A stretch of 44,074 nucleotides of DNA. Source: a virus. This document shows positions 13,710 to 42,858 of this stretch, piece by piece (the stretch's first letter is position 1; the number at the start of each line of letters is the position of its first letter). The stretch is taken from the IMG/VR virus record IMGVR_UViG_3300046003_009098, positions 1 through 44,074 of that record. One strand, given 5' to 3'. The notes beneath the pieces were generated by a model that was not told the DNA's origin, made no database searches, and worked only from the letters and a program-made list of their open reading frames with translations. Position numbers and translations under genes: made by a program.

Positions 13710-14231
13710 ATGATTTCCGACCCGAGCCCCGAGCACCGTGCTGTTCTTGCTTTAGATCTGGGTACCACCACCGGCTGGGCACTGCGTCTGCCAGACCTCT
13801 CAGTCACCCATGGCTTTATCAGCTTCAAGCCCCAGCGCTTTGAGGGAGGTGGCATGCGATACCTTCGCTTTCGGCGTTGGCTGGATGAGGTATTGGCCAC
13901 AACAGCAGGTCAGAGCGATTCAGCGGCTCTGGGTGCGGTTTATTTCGAAGAGGTGCGCCGACACCTTGGCGTGGATGCTGCGCACGTCTACGGCGGTTTG
14001 CTGGCGACACTGACCGCCTGGTGTGAGCATCACCGTATTCCCTATCAAGGCGTCCCTGTAGGAACGATCAAACGACATGCGACGGGGAAGGGCAATGCCA
14101 GCAAGGCCGAGGTTATTGCCGCCATTCAGGCTGCCGGGCACGCGGTCAACGACGATAACGAGGCGGACGCGCTTGCGGTTTTGGGTTGGGCTCTGGCGCA
14201 ACAGATGGCGGGAGGTGTGCCTCATGGCTAA
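13710..14231 (+). CDS. RuvC-like Holliday junction resolvase
   Basis: A 173-residue RNase H-fold nuclease. Asp16 (LALDLGTTTGWAL), Glu80/81 (VYFEEV) and Asp148-Asp149 plus Asp153 (DDNEADAL) supply the acidic site. TIKRHATGKGNASKAEV matches the RuvC segment preceding its last acids. ATG 13710 follows TTTGGAGGA and fits the family's N-terminus; the frame is open further upstream without support. It would cut Holliday junctions and branched DNA made by the recombination genes and needed before packaging. It overlaps the next gene by 8 bp. Confidence 0.9.
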   Translation: MISDPSPEHRAVLALDLGTTTGWALRLPDLSVTHGFISFKPQRFEGGGMRYLRFRRWLDEVLATTAGQSDSAALGAVYFEEVRRHLGVDAAHVYGGLLATLTAWCEHHRIPYQGVPVGTIKRHATGKGNASKAEVIAAIQAAGHAVNDDNEADALAVLGWALAQQMAGGVPHG

Positions 14232-14745
14232 GAACTCCGTCAGCAAACCTCTTGAGCACGGAGAGCATGTGCAATTGTCCGGCGGTCGGATGGCAGAGTG
14301 GAATAGCTTGGGCGAGGAGGGCACCACCTTCCGAACCGAGCATTTCAAGTGTGTGGACACGCTTGGCATCATGCTGCGCAATGGATCTATCACGGCCCAG
14401 ATGCACGATGCCGGTCAGGACTTTAACCGGACCTTCATTTTTGCTCAGTTAAATCCAGCAGGCCCGCCGGCGCTTGACCGTATTCCTGGTGGTCAGTGGC
14501 GGGACAGCATGACTGAGCGAGTCGCCTTTGCCCGCAAAAGGCTGCATGAAGCATTGGATGCGGTGGGGGGTATCAACAGCCCGGGTGGTTGTGCGGTGTG
14601 GCACGTGGCTGGGATGGGGCGAAGCGTCAAAGAATGGTCACTGCTTGAAGGCTGGAATGGCCGGGCACTGAACCAGTACGAGGCTAAAGGCATCCTGGTG
14701 GCGGCTCTGGGGGTGCTGGCAGTGCACTACGGCTACAGCCGCTAA
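14224..14745 (+). CDS. DUF6456-like phage protein; possible late regulator
   Basis: 173 residues starting at ATG 14224, inside the end of the resolvase gene. The C-terminal 110 residues carry the order I associate with DUF6456: DAGQDFNRTFIFAQLNP, LHEALDAVGG, GGCAVWHVAGMGRSVKEW, then a final YEAKGILVAALGVLAVHYG. The last two blocks look like an HTH core in which WHVAGMGRSVKEWS recognises DNA. It is the last gene of the early operon, upstream of the toxin-antitoxin pair and the candidate late promoter. This is the slot where lambda-like phages keep a Q-type antiterminator or late activator, so that role is a hypothesis. Confidence 0.6.
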   Translation: MAKNSVSKPLEHGEHVQLSGGRMAEWNSLGEEGTTFRTEHFKCVDTLGIMLRNGSITAQMHDAGQDFNRTFIFAQLNPAGPPALDRIPGGQWRDSMTERVAFARKRLHEALDAVGGINSPGGCAVWHVAGMGRSVKEWSLLEGWNGRALNQYEAKGILVAALGVLAVHYGYSR

Positions 14746-14752
14746 AATGTAC

Positions 14753-14781
14753 TTGTCAGGACGTTGTCCGGACGGTATGAT
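14753..14781 (+). promoter_or_regulatory. tacAT promoter with tandem operator repeats
   Basis: TTGTCA (14753-14758) and TATGAT (14776-14781) are spaced by exactly 17 bases, a good sigma-70 promoter 29 bases before the antitoxin ATG. Two 11-bp direct repeats, TTGTCAGGACG (14753-14763) and TTGTCCGGACG (14764-14774), fill the -35 and spacer. Each is centred on GTC(A/C)GGAC, perfectly palindromic in the second copy. TacA antitoxins are ribbon-helix-helix repressors that bind such repeats, so autoregulation is likely. Confidence 0.7.
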
Positions 14782-14809
14782 GAGCCTACTTATGAAAAAA
14801 GGGGTCACT

Positions 14810-15088
14810 ATGACCGCTGTCACCCATTCCAAATCCGAGCGCATCGACGTGCGCGCCAGCACGCCCGTGAAGCAATTGCTTCAGGAAGCCGCGCGTGTGG
14901 CGCACAAGAACGTGAGCGAATTTTTGCTCGATGCTGGTATTAACGCGGCCAACCAGACCCTGGCCGACCGGACCCGCTTTGAGCTTGATGCTGAGAAGTG
15001 GCAGGCGTTTCAGGCAGCACTGGATCAGCCTGTAACCGACAAACCCAAGCTCAAGAAGCTGTTGTCTGAGACCGGGTTGCTTGGTTGA
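14810..15088 (+). CDS. tacA: TacA-type (DUF1778) antitoxin
   Basis: A 92-residue protein with an N-terminal ribbon-helix-helix DNA-binding part (SERIDVRASTPVKQLLQEA, then NVSEFLLDAGINAA). A C-terminal toxin-neutralising segment follows (FELDAEKWQAFQAALDQP, KLKKLLSETGLL). These match the TacA/DUF1778 antitoxins that pair with GNAT toxins. The start ATG 14810 follows AAAAGGGG; an upstream ATG at 14792 is possible, but any start before 14781 would lie within the promoter. Its stop overlaps the toxin's TTG start as TTGA. Prophage location suggests a stabilising or anti-phage role (inference). Confidence 0.9.
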   Translation: MTAVTHSKSERIDVRASTPVKQLLQEAARVAHKNVSEFLLDAGINAANQTLADRTRFELDAEKWQAFQAALDQPVTDKPKLKKLLSETGLLG

Positions 15089-15597
15089 GCTCGGCAGTCT
15101 ACGAGCCAGTTCGTAAACTGGCCGGCTCGGACGCTGTTGAGTCCTTTGATTGTGGCCAGCCTGCGCTGAATCAGTTTTTGCAGCGCTTTGCACTGGTCAA
15201 TCAAAAATCAAACAGTGCTCAGACGTACGTCTGCTGCCATTCGGGCGCGGTCGTGGGATTCTACAGCTTGGCCGTTGGCAGCGTTGAGCCAGCAGCCGCC
15301 GCACCCCGTGTCACCAAAGGGATACCGCAGCACCCTGTGCCCGTGATGATTCTGGCCAGGCTTGCTGTTGATCAGCACCATCAAGGTGTAGGGCTTGGCA
15401 AAGCGTTGCTCAAGGACGCTTTGCTTCGAACCGCGCAGGCTGCCGACATTGCCGGGATTCGTGCGTTGCTGGTCCACGCCAAGGACGAGCTTGCCAGGCA
15501 GTGGTACCTGAATTGGGAGTTTGAACCCAGTCCCTCGGATCCATTTCATTTGTTTCTTTTGATGAAGGATATCAAGGCGATCGTCGTCAGCGGATAA
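15085..15597 (+). CDS. tacT: TacT-type GNAT acetyltransferase toxin
   Basis: A 170-residue GNAT-fold acetyltransferase. The acetyl-CoA loop is at residues 97-106 (QHHQGVGLGK) after ILARLAVD. Tyr141 in QWYLNWEF is at the place of the catalytic tyrosine of TacT-type toxins, which acetylate the amino acid on charged tRNAs and block translation. The TTG start overlaps the antitoxin stop, ensuring coupled, lower-level synthesis. The length and motif order fit the family, so I judge the gene intact. The specific tRNA target cannot be deduced. Confidence 0.9.
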   Translation: MSSAVYEPVRKLAGSDAVESFDCGQPALNQFLQRFALVNQKSNSAQTYVCCHSGAVVGFYSLAVGSVEPAAAAPRVTKGIPQHPVPVMILARLAVDQHHQGVGLGKALLKDALLRTAQAADIAGIRALLVHAKDELARQWYLNWEFEPSPSDPFHLFLLMKDIKAIVVSG

Positions 15598-15638
15598 GGA
15601 CCCCGTAGGGGCTTGTTTGACTGCCGAATTAAAACCGC

Positions 15639-15667
15639 TTGACCGGTATATATCGATCGGATACGAT
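15639..15667 (+). promoter_or_regulatory. Candidate late promoter
   Basis: TTGACC (15639-15644) and TACGAT (15662-15667) lie 17 bases apart in the gap after the toxin gene. Transcription would begin near 15674 and at once meet two intrinsic terminators (15688-15718 and 15733-15763) before the methyltransferase. This promoter, leader and terminator order is like lambda pR'/tR'. There is no experimental support here. Confidence 0.5.
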
Positions 15668-15687
15668 CCAGCTAATCACTAAAGATG

Positions 15688-15718
15688 CGCCCACCCAGTT
15701 TCCCTCGGTGGGCGTTTT
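15688..15718 (+). terminator. Intrinsic terminator 1 before the methyltransferase gene
   Basis: CGCCCACC (15688-15695), an 11-base loop, GGTGGGCG (15707-15714), then TTTT. It would end the tacAT transcript and also any transcript from the promoter at 15639-15667. Confidence 0.75.
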
Positions 15719-15732
15719 GCTTTCTGCTCCCC

Positions 15733-15763
15733 AAACCCGCCCGCATCACCGAGGCGGGTTTTT
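15733..15763 (+). terminator. Intrinsic terminator 2 before the methyltransferase gene
   Basis: AAACCCGCC (15733-15741), an 11-base loop, GGCGGGTTT (15753-15761) and further Ts. The stem is 9 bp and bordered by A on one side and T on the other. It lies only 15 bases before the methyltransferase ATG, so that gene needs readthrough. Confidence 0.8.
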
Positions 15764-15777
15764 CATTTCTGGCGCTG

Positions 15778-17022
15778 ATGAACCCAATCAAACTTGAATA
15801 CCGCGCAGTCGACGCGTTGATTCCGTATGCGCGCAATGCCAAGCAACACTCTGAAGCGCAGGTGGCGCAAATTGCCGCAAGTATTCGTGAGTTTGGCTGG
15901 GGGGCGCCGATTCTGATTGATGGTCAGAACAACGTTATTGCGGGCCATGGTCGACTGCTTGCGGCACGTAAGCTCGGACTGCTCGAGGTTCCGGTTGTGC
16001 CTATGGAGCATCTCACGGATACCCAGCGTCGCGCACTGATCCTGGCGGATAACAAGATCGGCGAAAACGCCTCGTGGGAAGACGAGCTACTCGGGATCGA
16101 ACTGTCCGAATTGAAAGACGCTGGATTTGATCTGGGCTTGACCGGCTTTTCTACCGAAGAGTGGGAAGCATTGATCGCCGGTGAGGCGCAGACCAAGGAC
16201 GGACTGACTGATGACGATGCGGTCCCAGAGGTCTCAGAGAATCCAATTTCAAAGCCAGGCGATCTCTGGATTCTTGGGGAGCACAAGCTGCTCTGTGGTG
16301 ATGCTACGAAGCCTGACGATTACAAGATGTTGTTGGGCGACGAGTTGGTTGATATGACCTTCACCGATCCGCCTTACAACGTGAACTACGCGAACACGGC
16401 CAAAGAAAAATTTCTCGGGAAGAATCGCCCGATCATGAATGACAATCTGGGCGAAGGATTCGGTAGTTTTCTGTTCGATGCTTGTGACAACATCCTGACG
16501 CGCACCAAGGGTGCTATCTACATTGCGATGAGCTCATCGGAATTAGATACCTTGCAAGCTGCGTTTCGGGCCGCAGGCGGTAAATGGTCTACCTTCATTA
16601 TCTGGGCCAAGAATACTTTTACGCTGGGTCGCGCCGACTACCAACGGCAATACGAGCCGATTCTCTACGGATGGCGTGATGGCGCCGATCACTACTGGTG
16701 CGGTGCGCGGGACCAAGGTGATGTATGGAACATCAAGAAGCCCGCCAAGAACGATTTGCATCCGACGATGAAGCCCGTGGAACTGGTCGAGCGCGCGGTC
16801 CGCAACAGCAGCAAAACACGTGATCTGGTTCTTGATCCCTTCGGTGGCTCCGGGACGACATTAATTGCGTGCGAAAAATCAGGACGTCGCGCCAGAATCA
16901 TCGAGCTTGATCCTAAGTATGTCGACGTCATCGTAAAGCGCTGGGAAGAGTACACCGGCGATAAAGCCCAGAAGGCCAATGCGCCGGTGTTAGATGAGTC
17001 TCTGGCAGACGAACCTTCTTAA
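15778..17022 (+). CDS. DNA methyltransferase with N-terminal ParB-like domain
   Basis: 414 residues. The first 110 residues are a ParB/Srx-like domain (YARNAKQHSEAQVAQIAASI, AGHGRLLAARKLGL, ADNKIGENASW). The rest is an amino-methyltransferase with motif IV TDPPYNVNY at about 196 and the AdoMet motif DPFGGSGTT at about 352, in the beta-class order. DPPY favours N6-adenine, though N4-cytosine is possible. ATG 15778 is chosen because the upstream extension would run through both terminators. No restriction partner is adjacent, so it is probably an orphan enzyme that protects phage DNA or alters gene control. Its end overlaps the convergent DUF3489 gene. Confidence 0.9.
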   Translation: MNPIKLEYRAVDALIPYARNAKQHSEAQVAQIAASIREFGWGAPILIDGQNNVIAGHGRLLAARKLGLLEVPVVPMEHLTDTQRRALILADNKIGENASWEDELLGIELSELKDAGFDLGLTGFSTEEWEALIAGEAQTKDGLTDDDAVPEVSENPISKPGDLWILGEHKLLCGDATKPDDYKMLLGDELVDMTFTDPPYNVNYANTAKEKFLGKNRPIMNDNLGEGFGSFLFDACDNILTRTKGAIYIAMSSSELDTLQAAFRAAGGKWSTFIIWAKNTFTLGRADYQRQYEPILYGWRDGADHYWCGARDQGDVWNIKKPAKNDLHPTMKPVELVERAVRNSSKTRDLVLDPFGGSGTTLIACEKSGRRARIIELDPKYVDVIVKRWEEYTGDKAQKANAPVLDESLADEPS

Positions 17023-17474
17023 ACGTAGGCGATGCGATATACACGTTCGGCGTTTTCATCTTTGACCGAGACGATAGTGAGTCCCAGTTTTTTCTTTAAG
17101 GAACCAGCAAAGGCGCCGCGCACCGTATGTGCTTGCCAGCCAGTGGCTTCGCAAATTTGTGTGATGGTGGCACCTTCGGGGCGCTTTAAGAGGGCGATCA
17201 CCTGAGCCTGTTTGCTGTTTTCACGTGTTTTGATTTGACCGGGTTTCTTGGGTTCGACCAGGGGTGGCTCGATACCAAGGGCTGCGTACGCTGCCTTGGT
17301 CATCACGGTGGCGCGCTTATTTTTTGAAATCAGACCGGCTTTCACCATGCTTTCAACGGTCTTTGCCTTCGCACCGCCTTTTAACGTCTCGGGAAACCAG
17401 TCGATTCTGCCGGCGGTATGTTGATGAGCGTGGTTGAGAATCGCTTGTTGAGTGGCCGTGAGTTTGATGCTCAT
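17019..17474 (-). CDS. DUF3489 protein
   Basis: A 151-residue basic protein on the minus strand within the late region. Residues 1-60 form one helical domain (LTATQQAILNHAHQH, KTVESMVKAGLISK). Residues 88-150 form a winged-helix-like segment with the DUF3489 signature (KQAQVIALLKRPEGATITQI, TGWQAHTVRGAFAG). It is probably DNA-binding. AAGGAAG precedes the ATG. Members occur near recombinases and in prophages, but their job is unknown. Opposite orientation to all late genes suggests independent expression, perhaps during lysogeny. Confidence 0.85.
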   Translation of the reverse strand: MSIKLTATQQAILNHAHQHTAGRIDWFPETLKGGAKAKTVESMVKAGLISKNKRATVMTKAAYAALGIEPPLVEPKKPGQIKTRENSKQAQVIALLKRPEGATITQICEATGWQAHTVRGAFAGSLKKKLGLTIVSVKDENAERVYRIAYV

Positions 17475-38007: not shown

Positions 38008-39075
38008 ATGCAAAATTTCACGACCATACCGTCCTCTGAGACGCTGACCAATTCGCTCTCGCCCTTATTGAATAACGATAAAACGGCGCTCTCCAACTCC
38101 AGTGGCACGGTATTTCCCACGACCGAGCTGCAAGTGGGGATGAAGTGTTGGCGGTCCGACCAGCAAAAGCTGTATGTATTGACGAGTGCATCTCCTGCTA
38201 CATGGGTATTGCTCGCGGATCTCAGTAGTGGCAGCACTACGGTGGCGGCCGCCATTGCAGCGACAAGTGCCAATGACTCAGCAGCCTTGGCAGGTCAACT
38301 CCCGAGCTATTACACCGATATTCCCTCGCGCTTGGGATACACCCCGGTAAACAAAGCCGGTGATACCGCTACTGGATTGCAGTACCAAGTACGAGCAACC
38401 GGCGCCTTCAATTATTGGGGGCTTACGGCCGCCAACTACCTATCAGTCGGCCAAAGCTCGACGGGAGATGCGTACGTCAAGAACGCCTACCCTGGTAAGA
38501 GCTTAATCCTAGGGGCGGCTAACACCGACCACATCGTTATCAATTCAACAGGTGCTGTGGGTGCCGGTGGCGCCAACTTCGGCACAGCTGGGCAGGTACT
38601 GACTTCTGCCGGTAGTACAGCGCCACCAGTCTGGCAGGCGCCACCTCAGGAATTTGCCAGTGGCACGAGGCTGCTATTTCAACAGACTGCTGCCCCCACT
38701 GGGTGGACTAAAGACTCAACGCATAACGATAAGGCACTCCGGGTCATCAATGGCACGGTGACTTCAGGAGGGTCGGTTGCCTTCACGACTGCCTTTGCCC
38801 AACAGGCCGTAAACGGGACCGTCGGCGCCACCACGCTGACCGAAGCCCAGATTCCCAGCCATACCCATAGCTATAGCTGGTACCAATCAGTATCCAAAGG
38901 AAGTACTGGGTCGCGTCCGGTTGGTGGAGCCAGCGGAACATCAACGGCAACTGTAGCCCTTAATCAGGTGGATTCCGCAACCGGCGGTGGCGGGTCGCAC
39001 AACCACACCTTTACTGGTACGGCCATCAATCTGGCCGTTCAGTACGTCGACGTCATCATCGCTACCAAGAACTGA
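38008..39075 (+). CDS. Tail fibre protein with collar/tip domain
   Basis: 355 residues. The N-terminal half contains GYTPVNKAGDT, the classic phage fibre motif, and a carbohydrate-like beta region. From residue 220 on it matches tail-collar/fibre tips (RLLFQQTAAPTGWTKDST, AQIPSHTHSYSW, GGGGSHNHTFTG). The paired HxH motifs bind metal along the fibre axis in related T4 gp12-type tips. The ATG directly follows the stop of the repeat protein. It is the last ordinary structural gene before the oxygenase cassette. Confidence 0.85.
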   Translation: MQNFTTIPSSETLTNSLSPLLNNDKTALSNSSGTVFPTTELQVGMKCWRSDQQKLYVLTSASPATWVLLADLSSGSTTVAAAIAATSANDSAALAGQLPSYYTDIPSRLGYTPVNKAGDTATGLQYQVRATGAFNYWGLTAANYLSVGQSSTGDAYVKNAYPGKSLILGAANTDHIVINSTGAVGAGGANFGTAGQVLTSAGSTAPPVWQAPPQEFASGTRLLFQQTAAPTGWTKDSTHNDKALRVINGTVTSGGSVAFTTAFAQQAVNGTVGATTLTEAQIPSHTHSYSWYQSVSKGSTGSRPVGGASGTSTATVALNQVDSATGGGGSHNHTFTGTAINLAVQYVDVIIATKN

Positions 39076-39077
39076 TC

Positions 39078-39374
39078 ATGGAAATAAAGCCTGGAAATTA
39101 CTGTCCTCTTTTGAAAAAAGATTGCATCGGACTCCAGTGCGCTTGGTTTACGCAGGTACGAGGTCACAACCCCAACACCGGAAAAGAAGTCGATGAATGG
39201 TCGTGCGCCATAGCCTGGCTTCCAGTCCTACTCATCGAAAACAGCCAGCAGCAGCGATCTACTGGCGCAGCTGTGGAGAGTTTTAGAAATGAGATGGTCA
39301 AGGCCAATGAATGTTCGCAACAGGTCTTCCTGACCATGATTGCGAAACCACCCGTTATGGAGATCACCGAGTGA
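39078..39374 (+). CDS. Conserved Cys-containing phage hypothetical, 98 aa
   Basis: Starts two bases after the fibre gene. Cys9, Cys16, Cys21 and Cys43 (CPLLKKDCIGLQCAWFT, then EWSCAIAWLP) look like a metal or iron-sulfur site. The helical C-terminal half follows (LLIENSQQQRSTGAAVESFR). I recall this protein type as common next to phage tail genes, with no known function. Its stop overlaps the next start as GTGA. The metal site makes it a possible helper of the iron enzymes downstream, but that is speculation. Confidence 0.72.
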   Translation: MEIKPGNYCPLLKKDCIGLQCAWFTQVRGHNPNTGKEVDEWSCAIAWLPVLLIENSQQQRSTGAAVESFRNEMVKANECSQQVFLTMIAKPPVMEITE

Positions 39375-39670
39375 CTACACCAATCAGGCTAACGATTATT
39401 CCGGACGATTGCTACTGCGCAGTGGACGGCATTGGGTATTCAGGGATCGATATGACCAGTCTGGCCGCTGAAATCCACGCCCTGCAGTGGTATGGCGAGC
39501 GCGGAGAAGAAGAGATCAAAGACTTGTCTACCGGCAGGATTGTCGACAACAAAGAGATCACCAGTTTGAACAACTATCAATCGGTGCTTGATTCGTACTG
39601 GTCCATCCGACATGCAGCAGAAGCTTTGACAGCTAAACAGCAACTCGCTGACGACATTCTGGAGGTCTGA
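39371..39670 (+). CDS. Hypothetical protein, 99 aa (possible tail fibre assembly helper)
   Basis: GTG at 39371 is chosen because it overlaps the preceding stop (GTGA); an upstream ATG at 39311 would extend far into the previous gene. The sequence TIIPDDCYCAVDGIGYSGID, then AAEIHALQWYGERGEEEIKD, is a pattern I associate with small phage proteins after tail fibres. The C-terminal half is helical (SYWSIRHAAEALTAKQQ). No catalytic motif is seen. It overlaps the next gene as TGATGATG. Confidence 0.65.
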   Translation: MTTPIRLTIIPDDCYCAVDGIGYSGIDMTSLAAEIHALQWYGERGEEEIKDLSTGRIVDNKEITSLNNYQSVLDSYWSIRHAAEALTAKQQLADDILEV

Positions 39671-40200
39671 TGATGAATTATGAACAGAAGCCTGTCCGAG
39701 CATTCGGGACAATCGCTTTACTACTCGACATCCCGGCAGGAACCATATTGGACGACGTGGATGTGCGCAAAGGCTGCTTCGTAGTGCAGCCGGATGGGAC
39801 ATACAACGAGACCCGAGACAAGTTCGTATGGATGGTCTTTAGTGGCCACATGCGCCATACCCATTTGGATACCGGCGATGTGACAGAGCGCTTTGCGGGC
39901 TACTGCTCGCTGGGGATCTATGACAAGCCGGGAGTCACTCGCGTCGACGTTATTGAAAACACCAAGATGATGTGCATCCCGCCTCAGTTAAGGGATGGCG
40001 TTTCTTTACATGACATCGCTCCTTGGCAGCTTTCAGCGGGGGAATCAGCTGCTCTGTCCAAAGGCACAAAATTATTTCTGGCAAGCGGCACTGCACAGAT
40101 CGGCAATGTTCAGATCACAGGCCCGCGACAAATCAGCGTCACAACCGGGGACAAAAATATCAAGGCAGTTAACGCCGTTTACGGGCTTACGTTTGCTTGA
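39670..40200 (+). CDS. Cupin-like hypothetical protein heading the oxygenase cassette
   Basis: 176 residues, largely beta-strand (FGTIALLLDIPAGTILDDVD, FVWMVFSGHMRHTHLDTGDV, ESAALSKGTKLFLASGTAQI). The layout suggests a cupin or jelly-roll. GHMRHTHLDTGD offers His ligands, but the second cupin motif is not clear, so metal binding is uncertain. ATG overlaps the preceding stop, and its own stop overlaps the first oxygenase (TGATGA). Co-translation with the oxygenases suggests one pathway, in which it might bind the substrate or be the substrate. It could also be a virion protein. Confidence 0.6.
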   Translation: MMNYEQKPVRAFGTIALLLDIPAGTILDDVDVRKGCFVVQPDGTYNETRDKFVWMVFSGHMRHTHLDTGDVTERFAGYCSLGIYDKPGVTRVDVIENTKMMCIPPQLRDGVSLHDIAPWQLSAGESAALSKGTKLFLASGTAQIGNVQITGPRQISVTTGDKNIKAVNAVYGLTFA

Positions 40201-40748
40201 TGAATCCTTACTTTACCAAGCTCGACATCCCGTTGGATGTCGATGGAGTATTCACTGATCCAACGGCATTGCTACGTAACGGCGAATACTTGAAGCAGCA
40301 GAAATACGGACTCGCTTTACTTAGGAAGAGGGCTTTCACGTCCGTACCCAACAGATCATATGTAGCAAGTGACGAAGATACTCATCGAGTCATTTCGCAT
40401 CTACCAACCCGCCTGCTTGACATTGAAATACCGAAACTCTGGGTGCTGGACATGCTTGCTCCGGCAGATGAAAAGGACGTGATGCTCGCGCCCCATGTAG
40501 ATGGCGTTCGTGTTACCGCGATCAACATCTACCGCAATACCCACGGTGAGCGAACCTGTTTCTACCGATACGCAGCGGGTGGGGAGATCGAAGAAGTCGA
40601 CAGCTTTGTGGCCAAGGATGGTGACATATGGCTGATGGATGTATCAAAGCCGCACGCCGTTGAACTCAAGCCAGGCAAGAATCGCCGAGTTTTAACCATC
40701 TCGTTCATCTCCACACCCTACGAGGTGGTTCGGGACACTCTGACATGA
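40197..40748 (+). CDS. Fe(II)/2-oxoglutarate-type oxygenase 1
   Basis: 183 residues of a double-stranded beta-helix protein. His100-x-Asp102 (APHVDGVRV), distal His153 (SKPHAVELK) and Arg163/164, ten to eleven residues after it (RRVLTISF), reproduce the HxD...H...R signature of Fe(II)/2-oxoglutarate dioxygenases, with the arginine for the cosubstrate carboxylate. The compact length fits aspartyl/prolyl hydroxylase-like small members. Its closest visible relative is the next gene. The substrate is unknown. It overlaps both neighbours, so expression is coupled. Confidence 0.72.
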   Translation: MMNPYFTKLDIPLDVDGVFTDPTALLRNGEYLKQQKYGLALLRKRAFTSVPNRSYVASDEDTHRVISHLPTRLLDIEIPKLWVLDMLAPADEKDVMLAPHVDGVRVTAINIYRNTHGERTCFYRYAAGGEIEEVDSFVAKDGDIWLMDVSKPHAVELKPGKNRRVLTISFISTPYEVVRDTLT

Positions 40749-41293
40749 AACCCTTCGTGAAGCTTGATTGGAAGGCGCCCTTCGGCGCAGAAATAGTTCG
40801 ATGGGCAACAATCCATCATCGGTTCAGCAAGAAGCAAAAATATAACAAGTGTCTGCCGGACGAATACACGTCAGTGCCAACCGAATCGTTGTCACTGCCA
40901 GAGGCCTTTGCCAGTCAGGCAATCGCTGTTGCCCCGGCCACGATAAAAGTCTTGGAAATTCCGCAGGCATTTCTCATTCGAATGGCTGCCACAGATGCAT
41001 TAAAGCCGGTGCTACCGGCGCATGTTGATTACAACCGAACCTGCGGCATCAATTTTTACCTGGAAGCCGGCGGAGAAACCACGCACTACTACGACTGGGA
41101 TCAGACTTCCCGCGCTTTGCAGGAGACGGCTTCATTTCAGGCGTCCCAAGGCGACTGCTGGCTAATCGACACCTCTATACCGCACTCGGTCTCGCTAAAG
41201 TCAAATCAGCAGCGGCTGATATTGACCCTGTCCTTTACACAAGCCTCCTTTGCACAAGTGTCGGCGTGGCTTGGCGAGGCTGGCCATGTCTGA
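40745..41293 (+). CDS. Fe(II)/2-oxoglutarate-type oxygenase 2 (paralogue of 1)
   Basis: 182 residues with the same fold and layout: His93-x-Asp95 (PAHVDYNRT), His147 (SIPHSVSLK) and Arg157 (RLILTLSF). Spacing His-His is 54 against 53 in the previous protein, and blocks GD(C/I)W and (L/I)TLSF are shared, so the two arose by tandem duplication and then diverged widely. Different residues after HxD (YNRTCG versus GVRVTA) suggest different substrates or steps. ATGA overlap with gene 1, and an 8-bp overlap with the desaturase. No close match is recognised. Confidence 0.72.
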   Translation: MKPFVKLDWKAPFGAEIVRWATIHHRFSKKQKYNKCLPDEYTSVPTESLSLPEAFASQAIAVAPATIKVLEIPQAFLIRMAATDALKPVLPAHVDYNRTCGINFYLEAGGETTHYYDWDQTSRALQETASFQASQGDCWLIDTSIPHSVSLKSNQQRLILTLSFTQASFAQVSAWLGEAGHV

Positions 41294-42044
41294 GTTTTCA
41301 AAGCTCCGACTGCTGATCCTGATGGTGCATTTGGCTGGGATTATGGGATTGATCGCCCACTGGAATCCGGCCTGGCTTGTGCTGACCTTGATTTCGGTAG
41401 TGCTATTCACGTGGCTTGGCCAGGAAGCTTACTGCCACCGATACCTCGCTCATCGCTCCTTTGAGCTGGATCGGGTTTGGCAGAATACGTTCGCTTTCCT
41501 GTCCATCTTCAATTTGTTTGGAAGCCCGATAGGCATTGCCGCCACCCATGTGAACCATCATCGATATTCCGACAGTCCTTTTGATCCGCACCCGGCAAGT
41601 GCCGGGTGGCAGACATGGCTTTGGCTCACTCACGGGTTTGAGCAGTCCCGTAACGTCGGAACGGTCAAGCGGCTGATGCAGGATGAATGGCTTATCTTCA
41701 TTCAGCGACATTACTTCCGGATCTATTTTTCCGTGGTTGGAGCTGCATCACTGATCGATATTCGGATCGCGACCTACGGCTTCTTTATTCCCGTTATTTA
41801 TGCATTTTTTTGCAACGGGGTGGTCAATGTCATTTGCCACAGGTACGGCTACAAATTATTCCAAACGAATGACGACAGCAAAAACAATATCTTCGCTAGT
41901 CTGATTTTGCTGGGTAACGGCGTCGCATTTCATAACACGCACCATGCTTACCCCAGCGACTATCGACTCTCTCGCAGGTGGTTTGAGATCGATGTCGTCG
42001 CATCGCTGATTGATCTCTTCCGTAAAAAGGACAGACCCAATTGA
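41286..42044 (+). CDS. Membrane fatty-acid desaturase-like di-iron enzyme
   Basis: 252 residues with the three histidine boxes of acyl-CoA/acyl-lipid desaturases: HRYLAH (51-56), HVNHH (88-92) and HNTHH (216-220). Four or so hydrophobic segments (LRLLILMVHLAGIMGLIA, NPAWLVLTLISVVLF, about 145-160, about 164-183) place it in the inner membrane, with the di-iron site in the cytoplasm. His51 of box one follows EAYC as in delta-9-type enzymes, but it is shorter than usual (about 300). ATG 41286 overlaps oxygenase 2. It could introduce a double bond in an acyl chain or modify another substrate. Its electron donor is not encoded nearby. Confidence 0.9.
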   Translation: MSEFSKLRLLILMVHLAGIMGLIAHWNPAWLVLTLISVVLFTWLGQEAYCHRYLAHRSFELDRVWQNTFAFLSIFNLFGSPIGIAATHVNHHRYSDSPFDPHPASAGWQTWLWLTHGFEQSRNVGTVKRLMQDEWLIFIQRHYFRIYFSVVGAASLIDIRIATYGFFIPVIYAFFCNGVVNVICHRYGYKLFQTNDDSKNNIFASLILLGNGVAFHNTHHAYPSDYRLSRRWFEIDVVASLIDLFRKKDRPN

Positions 42045-42769
42045 TATTGACCGAAGAGGAACAAAACATTGAATGTGCGATTGCGCTGCTTTTTCCTACT
42101 GCCGTCGCATCGTTTAATTGCAGTGAGCATACGGAATTCAAGAATACGTTCATGGAACGAATGCCGGAGCACTGCATTGTCCATGAGAGTGGGTCGGGAT
42201 TAATTACTGGTGAGAGTTCAGGAAAGGTCTACCTTCATACGGATGAAGCGTTGGCGCCGCTCTTTCGGTTTGTGGCGCGCTGCATTGCCAGCTATCTGGA
42301 TCAACTGTCCTATGACAAATCCCGGGTGACTATCAATATTGTCAAAACCTGGATCAGCGCCACCGACAACAAGACGGTGACTCCCGTTCATGCACACGGC
42401 ACCAGCCATCTGTCATTCGTCTATTACATGAATATTCCCAAAGAAGCAGACGCGATCGCTTTCCAGATCCAGTCCTCACCGAACGAGCCGTACTACGGTG
42501 CTTTTTCAGACTCGACCCATCGTCAGCGATCGATGGTTATCCAGCGTAATACCCTCAATTCCAACCAGGCAGTCATGCCGGTTGAGGAAGGGCAGCTTTT
42601 GGTGTTTCCCAGTCATTTACATCATGGAACAGTGAAGATGGGCGATATGGGAGCAGATCAGAGGATTGCCGTGGCTGGCGATGTGCTCCTGGTTTTTAAT
42701 GAGCCAGCCCCGAACTACGCTACCGGCGTGTTTGACCCACTCACCTGGCGATCCTTTGAGAATTCGTAG
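42041..42769 (+). CDS. Putative 2OG-Fe(II) oxygenase 3 (TIGR02466-like)
   Basis: 242 residues starting at TTG 42041, which overlaps the desaturase stop (TTGA). The segment VTPVHAHGTSHLSFVYYMNI (His117, His119, His123), then VEEGQLLVFPSHLHHGTVKM with His192/195, and DQRIAVAGDV with Arg208, resemble TIGR02466-type putative 2OG-Fe(II) oxygenases found in phages. The motif order HxH...H...R is not the strict HxD form, so activity is less certain. It is larger than and not obviously close to the pair upstream. It ends the cassette, with a terminator after it. Confidence 0.65.
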   Translation: MILTEEEQNIECAIALLFPTAVASFNCSEHTEFKNTFMERMPEHCIVHESGSGLITGESSGKVYLHTDEALAPLFRFVARCIASYLDQLSYDKSRVTINIVKTWISATDNKTVTPVHAHGTSHLSFVYYMNIPKEADAIAFQIQSSPNEPYYGAFSDSTHRQRSMVIQRNTLNSNQAVMPVEEGQLLVFPSHLHHGTVKMGDMGADQRIAVAGDVLLVFNEPAPNYATGVFDPLTWRSFENS

Positions 42770-42810
42770 ATTTATCGAACCACAAGCAATCTCACCGTAA
42801 TCCCCCTTTG

Positions 42811-42848
42811 ATGCCTGCCCGGAGACCTCCCGGCAGGCATTGTTTTTT
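42811..42848 (+). terminator. Intrinsic terminator after the oxygenase cassette
   Basis: ATGCCTGCC (42811-42819), a 12-base loop, GGCAGGCAT (42832-42840), then TG and T6. The 9-bp perfect stem lies 42 bases after the oxygenase stop and just before the lysis genes. Confidence 0.85.
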
Positions 42849-42858
42849 GGAGACATGA

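Follow-up and report, generated by a model that had tools for sequence, protein, structure and literature searches.

What does a phage do with a run of oxidative enzymes placed between its tail-fibre gene and its lysis genes? The question is raised by the IMG/VR record IMGVR_UViG_3300046003_009098, a virus contig of 44,074 bp which we analysed over its whole length and refer to as the window. Since it encodes a serine recombinase-type integrase, TerL, a Phage_capsid-family major head protein and a lambda-J-type tail tip, the window is most naturally read as a temperate siphovirus. A collar-type fibre gene is followed by two small genes (c23 and c30), by five genes that we call A to E, and then by the lysis genes. 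We propose that A to E are a modular set of late tailoring genes whose most likely target for oxidation is a protein of the tail tip, with A as the constant substrate, carrier or docking partner; we give this reading a probability of about 0.4.

A sequence-only reading of the window had placed the five genes at the fibre/lysis junction, joined by overlaps of 1 to 8 bp and ending at a terminator, and this layout was confirmed. All five open reading frames (ORFs) are present on the plus strand, spanning 39673-42769, with overlaps of 1 bp (A/B), 4 bp (B/C), 8 bp (C/D) and 4 bp (D/E), and A starts 2 bp past the end of c30. The cassette is closed by a hairpin at about 42810-42841 (-22.5 kcal/mol, z -4.45), followed by TTGTTTTTT; this intrinsic-terminator-like element, T-run included, lies at 42810-42850 on the plus strand. 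It was overlooked by a simple terminator scanner and found by folding energy with a z-score.

Recurrence of the cassette

A complete copy of the cassette was found in L101, a pond metagenome-assembled genome (MAG) contig labelled Bacteroidetes, a host label which may be a binning error. Its proteins are 85-90% identical to those of the window, and the ratio of nonsynonymous to synonymous substitution rates (dN/dS) between the two is 0.08-0.18 for each of A to E, showing purifying selection on all five genes. L002 carries A-B-C-D up to the contig end, and L018 and L021 carry A-B-D-E. The order A-B(-B/C)-D(-E) thus recurs behind fibre genes in independent contigs, in favour of the reading proposed here; because of this shared order and the low dN/dS values, we regard the cassette as more than a chance assembly.

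Linkage was also assessed in two separate scans of IMG/VR. The scan centred on B gave 36 distinct loci, 32 of which had another cassette gene within four genes; the immediate neighbours of B were cassette genes in 26 of 34 cases upstream and 27 of 34 downstream. This association decays steeply with distance, and at 8-12 genes cassette genes numbered none downstream and 0-2 of 17-19 upstream. The scan centred on D, with queries that were mostly cassette-borne, gave 59 loci after collapsing. Within three genes, a recognised oxygenase was present in 29, A in 27 and either of the two in 39, and A lay directly upstream of D in 19/58; at 9-12 genes oxygenases fell to 0-3% and A to none. The sequence-only reading had made its case depend on the genes not being rarely found together elsewhere, and in both scans most loci had cassette partners nearby. 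All 40 distinct copies of A were followed by an oxidase, in a sample that is conditional on A having been collected through B or D.

One further contig, L102, was discarded as chimeric. In this Aeromicrobium MAG contig (JALRCA010000069), positions 1-340 look like a window-type B gene fused to an actinobacterial dnaE-like gene.

Protein A is a putative non-catalytic bicupin

Protein A (39673-40200, 175 aa) had been called cupin-like from the letters alone, and structural modelling agreed. An AlphaFold model built from 37 relatives (predicted local distance difference test score, pLDDT, 87; some loops of the N-terminal half at lower confidence) contains two cupin-type beta barrels, and its full-length matches are bicupins, namely pirin YhhW (Z 9.9), HutD (9.8) and AerE (9.1). 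Searches of A against Pfam, PHROGs and NCBIfam gave no significant match. The 37 aligned sequences share an invariant Gly, Cys, Leu and Gly; they contain no conserved His, and conserved His/Glu metal ligands are absent, therefore we regard A as probably a non-catalytic bicupin. The single invariant Cys is kept in 63/63 relatives, along with a few Gly that are invariant or nearly so.

Sequence comparison of A and E with the PDB gave nothing useful, and matches of A to an IgE receptor were treated as chance (E about 0.1). A Foldseek resemblance of A to a cAMP-binding domain was set aside as a general jelly-roll likeness, with TM-scores of about 0.3 and a VIA ranking that favours bicupins. When A and C of the window, A and B of L041 and A of L116 were compared with 50,697 phage records, there were zero matches; the A/B core is therefore without a relative in that collection at that sensitivity. 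The cassette defines A as a new phage protein family.

The oxygenases B, C and E

B (40200-40748, preferred start ATG 40200) and C (40745-41293) were correctly recognised by the sequence-only reading as paralogous H-x-D...H...R oxygenases. The motif residues of B are H99-x-D101...H152...R162; C is 34-35% identical to B, with all the motif residues present. The model of B (pLDDT 95.9) has the double-stranded beta-helix fold of 2-oxoglutarate (2OG) oxygenases, a fold assigned to C through its homology to B. The folds closest to the B model are those of BesD/HalA, AspH and proline hydroxylases (Z about 10-11 to BesD, AspH and the proline hydroxylases), and such model-based matches do not reveal a substrate. 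At the level of families, C matches PF05118 (Asp_Arg_Hydrox; 6.5e-5, 23.3 bits against a cut-off of 22.6) narrowly and across 38 residues only, and B gave no significant match in Pfam, PF05118 included, or in PHROGs and NCBIfam. Taken together, motif and fold identify B and C as AspH-type 2OG/Fe(II) oxygenases, predicted to be 2OG- and O2-dependent hydroxylases.

E (42041-42769) had been taken for a third protein of this kind. It is indeed an oxygenase, of a family different from that of B and C: it matches PF13759 (2OG-FeII_Oxy_5; 3.3e-13, 50.3 bits against a cut-off of 27) and phrog_81 (1e-27), and scores 48.6 bits against TIGR02466, under that model's cut-off of 62.5. Its motif is H-x-H...H...R, and its relatives are mainly from cyanophages, the cyanophage relatives being up to 35% identical.

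Catalytic residues are kept throughout, not lost among relatives as the sequence-only reading had allowed they might be. The H, H and R of B occur in 107/107 relatives, the second motif position being D in 95, H in 10 and G in 2; for E, H-x-H...H occurs in 30/30 and R in 29/30.

The membrane desaturase D

The three-His-box desaturase proposed for D (41286-42044, preferred start ATG 41286) was upheld. D matches FA_desaturase (PF00487; 1.8e-14, 54.6 bits against a cut-off of 29.7) and aligns with SCD1 along its length (1.6e-13). It carries nine His at diiron-desaturase positions, and all nine are present in 92/92 relatives. With the DesA-type equivalog NF049918 it scores 83 bits, far under the cut-off of 400. 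By these matches D is a membrane diiron desaturase of the SCD/DesA superfamily. The RRGFxxSHxGW-like segment which follows box 2 in SCD1 and in cyanobacterial DesC-type enzymes is absent from the aligned phage D proteins; therefore acyl-CoA appears less likely as the substrate of D, with membrane lipids still possible. As the sequence-only reading had stated, no redox partner could be recognised within the cassette.

In a desaturase tree, the D proteins adjacent to A fall mainly into two well supported groups, with 5 label changes against 22.6 in shuffles. Desaturase matches from 'Acinetobacter phage MD-2021a' (L098, CAKLQH020000002.1) were discarded, as this record carries trpB, btuB and baeS and is apparently a bacterial chromosome.

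Enzymes are exchanged around A

Siphophages with the same fibre, c23, c30 and A genes differ in what follows A: B-D-E in L021, B-B-D-c34 in L024 and D-B-c34 in L176, while the allied L035 and L037 have B-B-c34. In L111 the arrangement is A-D-B-D-E, its two desaturases coming from different clades. Around A we thus observed A-B-D-E, A-B-B-D, A-D-B and A-B-B, with one to about six enzymes in shifting order. Such swapping, reordering and doubling of genes is better explained by combinatorial tailoring with interchangeable enzymes around a constant A than by one fixed linear pathway. The interpretation of the sequence-only reading was hence supported only in part: the cassette is real, recurrent and catalytically intact, but a single fixed pathway finds no support, since the enzyme set and order vary and different desaturase clades fill the same slot.

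Related gene sets were found in three other contexts. In one, up to four more oxygenase families (c6, c8, c14 and c25) lie behind Gly-rich fibre genes; in searches for Pfam 2OG families, c6 and c14 were over the cut-off, c8 was under it and c25 had no match.

In another context (class III), A is absent and PhoH-like genes are present, together with a T4-type gp32 gene in L087. Here a radical S-adenosylmethionine (SAM) protein of the peptide-maturase group adjoins a protein of about 300 aa with 14-28 Cys and an N terminus like that of a small tail protein (L013:1634-3971 and its relatives L071, L074, L080, L087-L090 and L187-L193). Sometimes two desaturases lie between these two genes, and E-B-(B)-AspH-like genes follow; the sets occur with or without D. 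The best models for the radical SAM protein are PapB, the quinohemoprotein maturase, the geopeptide maturase and CcpM, all far under their equivalog cut-offs. A cyanophage protein encoded beside an annotated fibre gene shares the C-terminal domain of the Cys-rich protein and has Gly-rich repeats and just 3 Cys; no relative of the c12-type radical SAM protein was found in the 18.5 kb around it. It is possible that the class III pair represents a virion protein maturation akin to that of ribosomally synthesised and post-translationally modified peptides (RiPPs), perhaps a more striking system than the window's own cassette. One class III contig also carries a Gram-negative porin gene (L187:14357-15574; Pfam Porin_4, 2.9e-30), and such a porin, made by the phage, could take the place of the host receptor.

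The last context combines A-D with a PP-loop-like ATPase, GNAT-like proteins, c70, c100, B and a SPASM radical SAM protein. The PP-loop motif was seen by eye, with weak NCBIfam matches, and c70 and c100 are oxygenase-like by their motifs, without a Pfam match. In one such A-D cassette an acyl carrier protein gene lies between two GNAT-like genes (L127:10345-10584; PP-binding, 4.4e-17). The genes of these last two contexts point to the tailoring of peptides or proteins, possibly with acyl groups.

Proposed function and its alternatives

We hypothesise that the cassette is expressed late, together with the tail-fibre genes. Its enzymes would oxidise a substrate belonging to the tail-tip locus: the soluble hydroxylases B, C and E with 2OG and O2, and D, a membrane desaturase or hydroxylase, with O2 and the electrons of a host redox partner, which we propose because none was recognised in the cassette. 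The target would most likely be a tail-tip protein, either a fibre/adhesin or A itself, modified before or during virion assembly, with A as substrate, carrier or docking partner for the interchangeable enzymes. The analysis establishes the genes, their folds and catalytic residues, purifying selection, recurrent linkage to A and to fibre genes and the exchange of enzymes, whereas we infer the joint action of the enzymes, their virion-protein target and their chemistry; fibre-side oxygenases in the cultured phages P-SSM2, HTVC023P and Mosig are consistent with this proposal.

Several observations weigh against it. As a membrane enzyme descended from lipid desaturases, D would be an odd choice for modifying a tail protein, and we recognised no fibre feature that goes with the presence or absence of the enzymes. 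In the D scan, 20 of the 59 loci had neither A nor a recognised oxygenase nearby, and the constancy of A is subject to the way in which its copies were collected. A radical SAM maturase with an adjoining substrate gene is absent from the window's own cassette, being present only in those of class III and of the context with PP-loop and GNAT-like genes (class IV).

The main rival, which we consider doubtful, is that the host envelope is modified, D desaturating membrane acyl chains and B, C and E hydroxylating lipid A, phospholipid or a surface glycan, so that fluidity or a receptor would be altered for superinfection exclusion or lysis timing. The closeness of D to SCD1 and to the DesA fatty-acid desaturase model fits this, as does the grouping of some class III D proteins with a Burkholderia desaturase in the tree. 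C, moreover, narrowly passes PF05118, the family type of the 2OG oxygenase LpxO, a lipid A hydroxylase; unlike LpxO, B and C are of about 182 aa, the B model is a single soluble oxygenase domain over its full length, and no lipid A genes adjoin them. An increase in membrane fluidity has been proposed as a role of viral desaturases (PMC7300359), and lipopolysaccharide (LPS)-related glycosyltransferases occur in pelagimyophage host-recognition clusters (PMC7029224). Against this stand the missing RRGFxxSHxGW-like segment, the fact that no gene for lipid or LPS biosynthesis was recognised in the cassette of the window, the swapping of enzyme sets around an A which has no lipid-enzyme relative, and the radical SAM, GNAT and PP-loop neighbours, which point to peptides. 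Between a lipid and a virion protein as substrate, gene context leans to the latter.

It is rather improbable that the product of the cassette is a small molecule or a modified peptide that is released, rather than a modified virion protein, with A as binding or carrier protein. The related cassettes do resemble a biosynthetic cluster in their desaturase, oxygenases, GNAT, PP-loop ATPase, SPASM radical SAM protein and, once, acyl carrier protein; the fold of B is like that of free-amino-acid hydroxylases and halogenases, and Mosig has a larger set including an aminotransferase, a methylase and a GNAT. Yet the window has no scaffold-building gene or recognised precursor peptide, and enzyme number falls to one beside A while the position behind fibre genes stays constant. 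Slightly less credible again is a collection of unlinked auxiliary genes in a variable late region, each with an effect of its own, such as a drop in 2OG or an adjustment of membranes. Such a view draws on the abundance of cyanophage 2OG oxygenases, with proposed roles in 2OG signalling or DNA repair (PMC3037559), on some phage desaturases that stand alone away from such a cassette (L007), and on the D loci without A or oxygenase; it is opposed by the steep positional enrichment, the conserved order of overlapping genes, the filling of one slot by two desaturase clades, and the recruited oxidase beside every A of the conditional sample.

An extension of the tail-tip proposal, which we consider unlikely as a whole, is a dedicated modular phage system for oxidative post-translational tailoring. 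In it A would serve as a conserved carrier or docking protein, perhaps with the substrate bound to its invariant Cys, and would present a tail-tip peptide or acyl group to swappable non-haem-iron hydroxylases and membrane desaturases, and adhesins would be chemically diversified. Should the tail-tip proposal hold, a large group of aquatic phages would perform oxidative reactions late, linked to the part of the virion that recognises the host; this would help explain many unexplained 2OG oxygenases and desaturases of marine phages, and some genes now filed as membrane-fluidity or metabolic would be recast. The cultured phages with partial versions make the idea testable.

Relation to known systems

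Word searches of the open-access literature found no description of an A-centred cassette, in line with the sequence-only reading, which knew of no system with this combination, and no paper on phage oxygenases acting on tail fibres. Single viral desaturases are known (PMC7300359, PMC7678222), among them the virus-encoded fatty acid desaturase vFAD from the Arctic (PMC7300359) and the cyanophage lipid desaturases of Roitman et al. (2018), as cited in PMC7300359. Window-type D shares with the viral fatty acid desaturases (PMC7300359) its superfamily, its histidine boxes and its occurrence in phage genomes, but it lies beside A and oxygenases behind fibre genes and is without the SCD1 segment. 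Numerous 2OG oxygenases occur in cyanophages (PMC3037559), and for pelagimyophages genes for stearoyl-CoA desaturase, AspH and radical SAM proteins have been noted (PMC7029224). These oxygenases belong to the same enzyme superfamily as those of the window; there, however, no A partner or desaturase cassette is described, and the roles proposed are 2OG signalling or nucleic acid repair and modification.

Also related are the pelagimyophage host recognition cluster (PMC7029224) and Pelagibacter phage Mosig EXVC030M, in which a variable region combines fibre genes with modifying enzymes, radical SAM genes included. Mosig has an adjacent AspH-like/desaturase pair a few kb from its fibre genes, P-SSM2 has the PiuC oxygenase two genes behind its c23 homologue, and in HTVC023P a putative tail gene is surrounded by four oxygenases of these families. 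The window differs from the pelagimyophage cluster and Mosig: it is a siphovirus-like, temperate record of 44 kb, and its five genes overlap in a compact set that includes protein A. As for radical SAM/SPASM peptide maturation (PapB, CcpM), class III cassettes likewise have a superfamily member beside a Cys-rich protein; unlike those systems, the window has none, the class III maturase is not close to any equivalog, and the putative substrate is fibre-like.

Neighbouring genes

The genes ahead of the cassette are likewise on the plus strand. The collar-type tail-fibre gene (38008-39075), a candidate substrate or partner, matches the PHROG tail protein phrog_5795 (2.5e-8) and also precedes the cassette in L101, L002, L018, L021 and L024. 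c23 (39078-39374) encodes a small Cys-containing protein of 98 aa, with homologues 54-64% identical in cyanophages and a Roseobacter podophage; it lies near fibre genes in the records inspected. c30 (39371-39670, about 99 aa) had no match in a Pfam search and is conserved in position in L021, L024, L069, L101 and L176. Past the lysozyme gene of L101, on the minus strand (13877-17325), one ORF of 315 aa is caspase-like and another of 137 aa is TIR/ThsB-like; judged by eye, the two might be a TIR-caspase defence pair adjoining the phage end.

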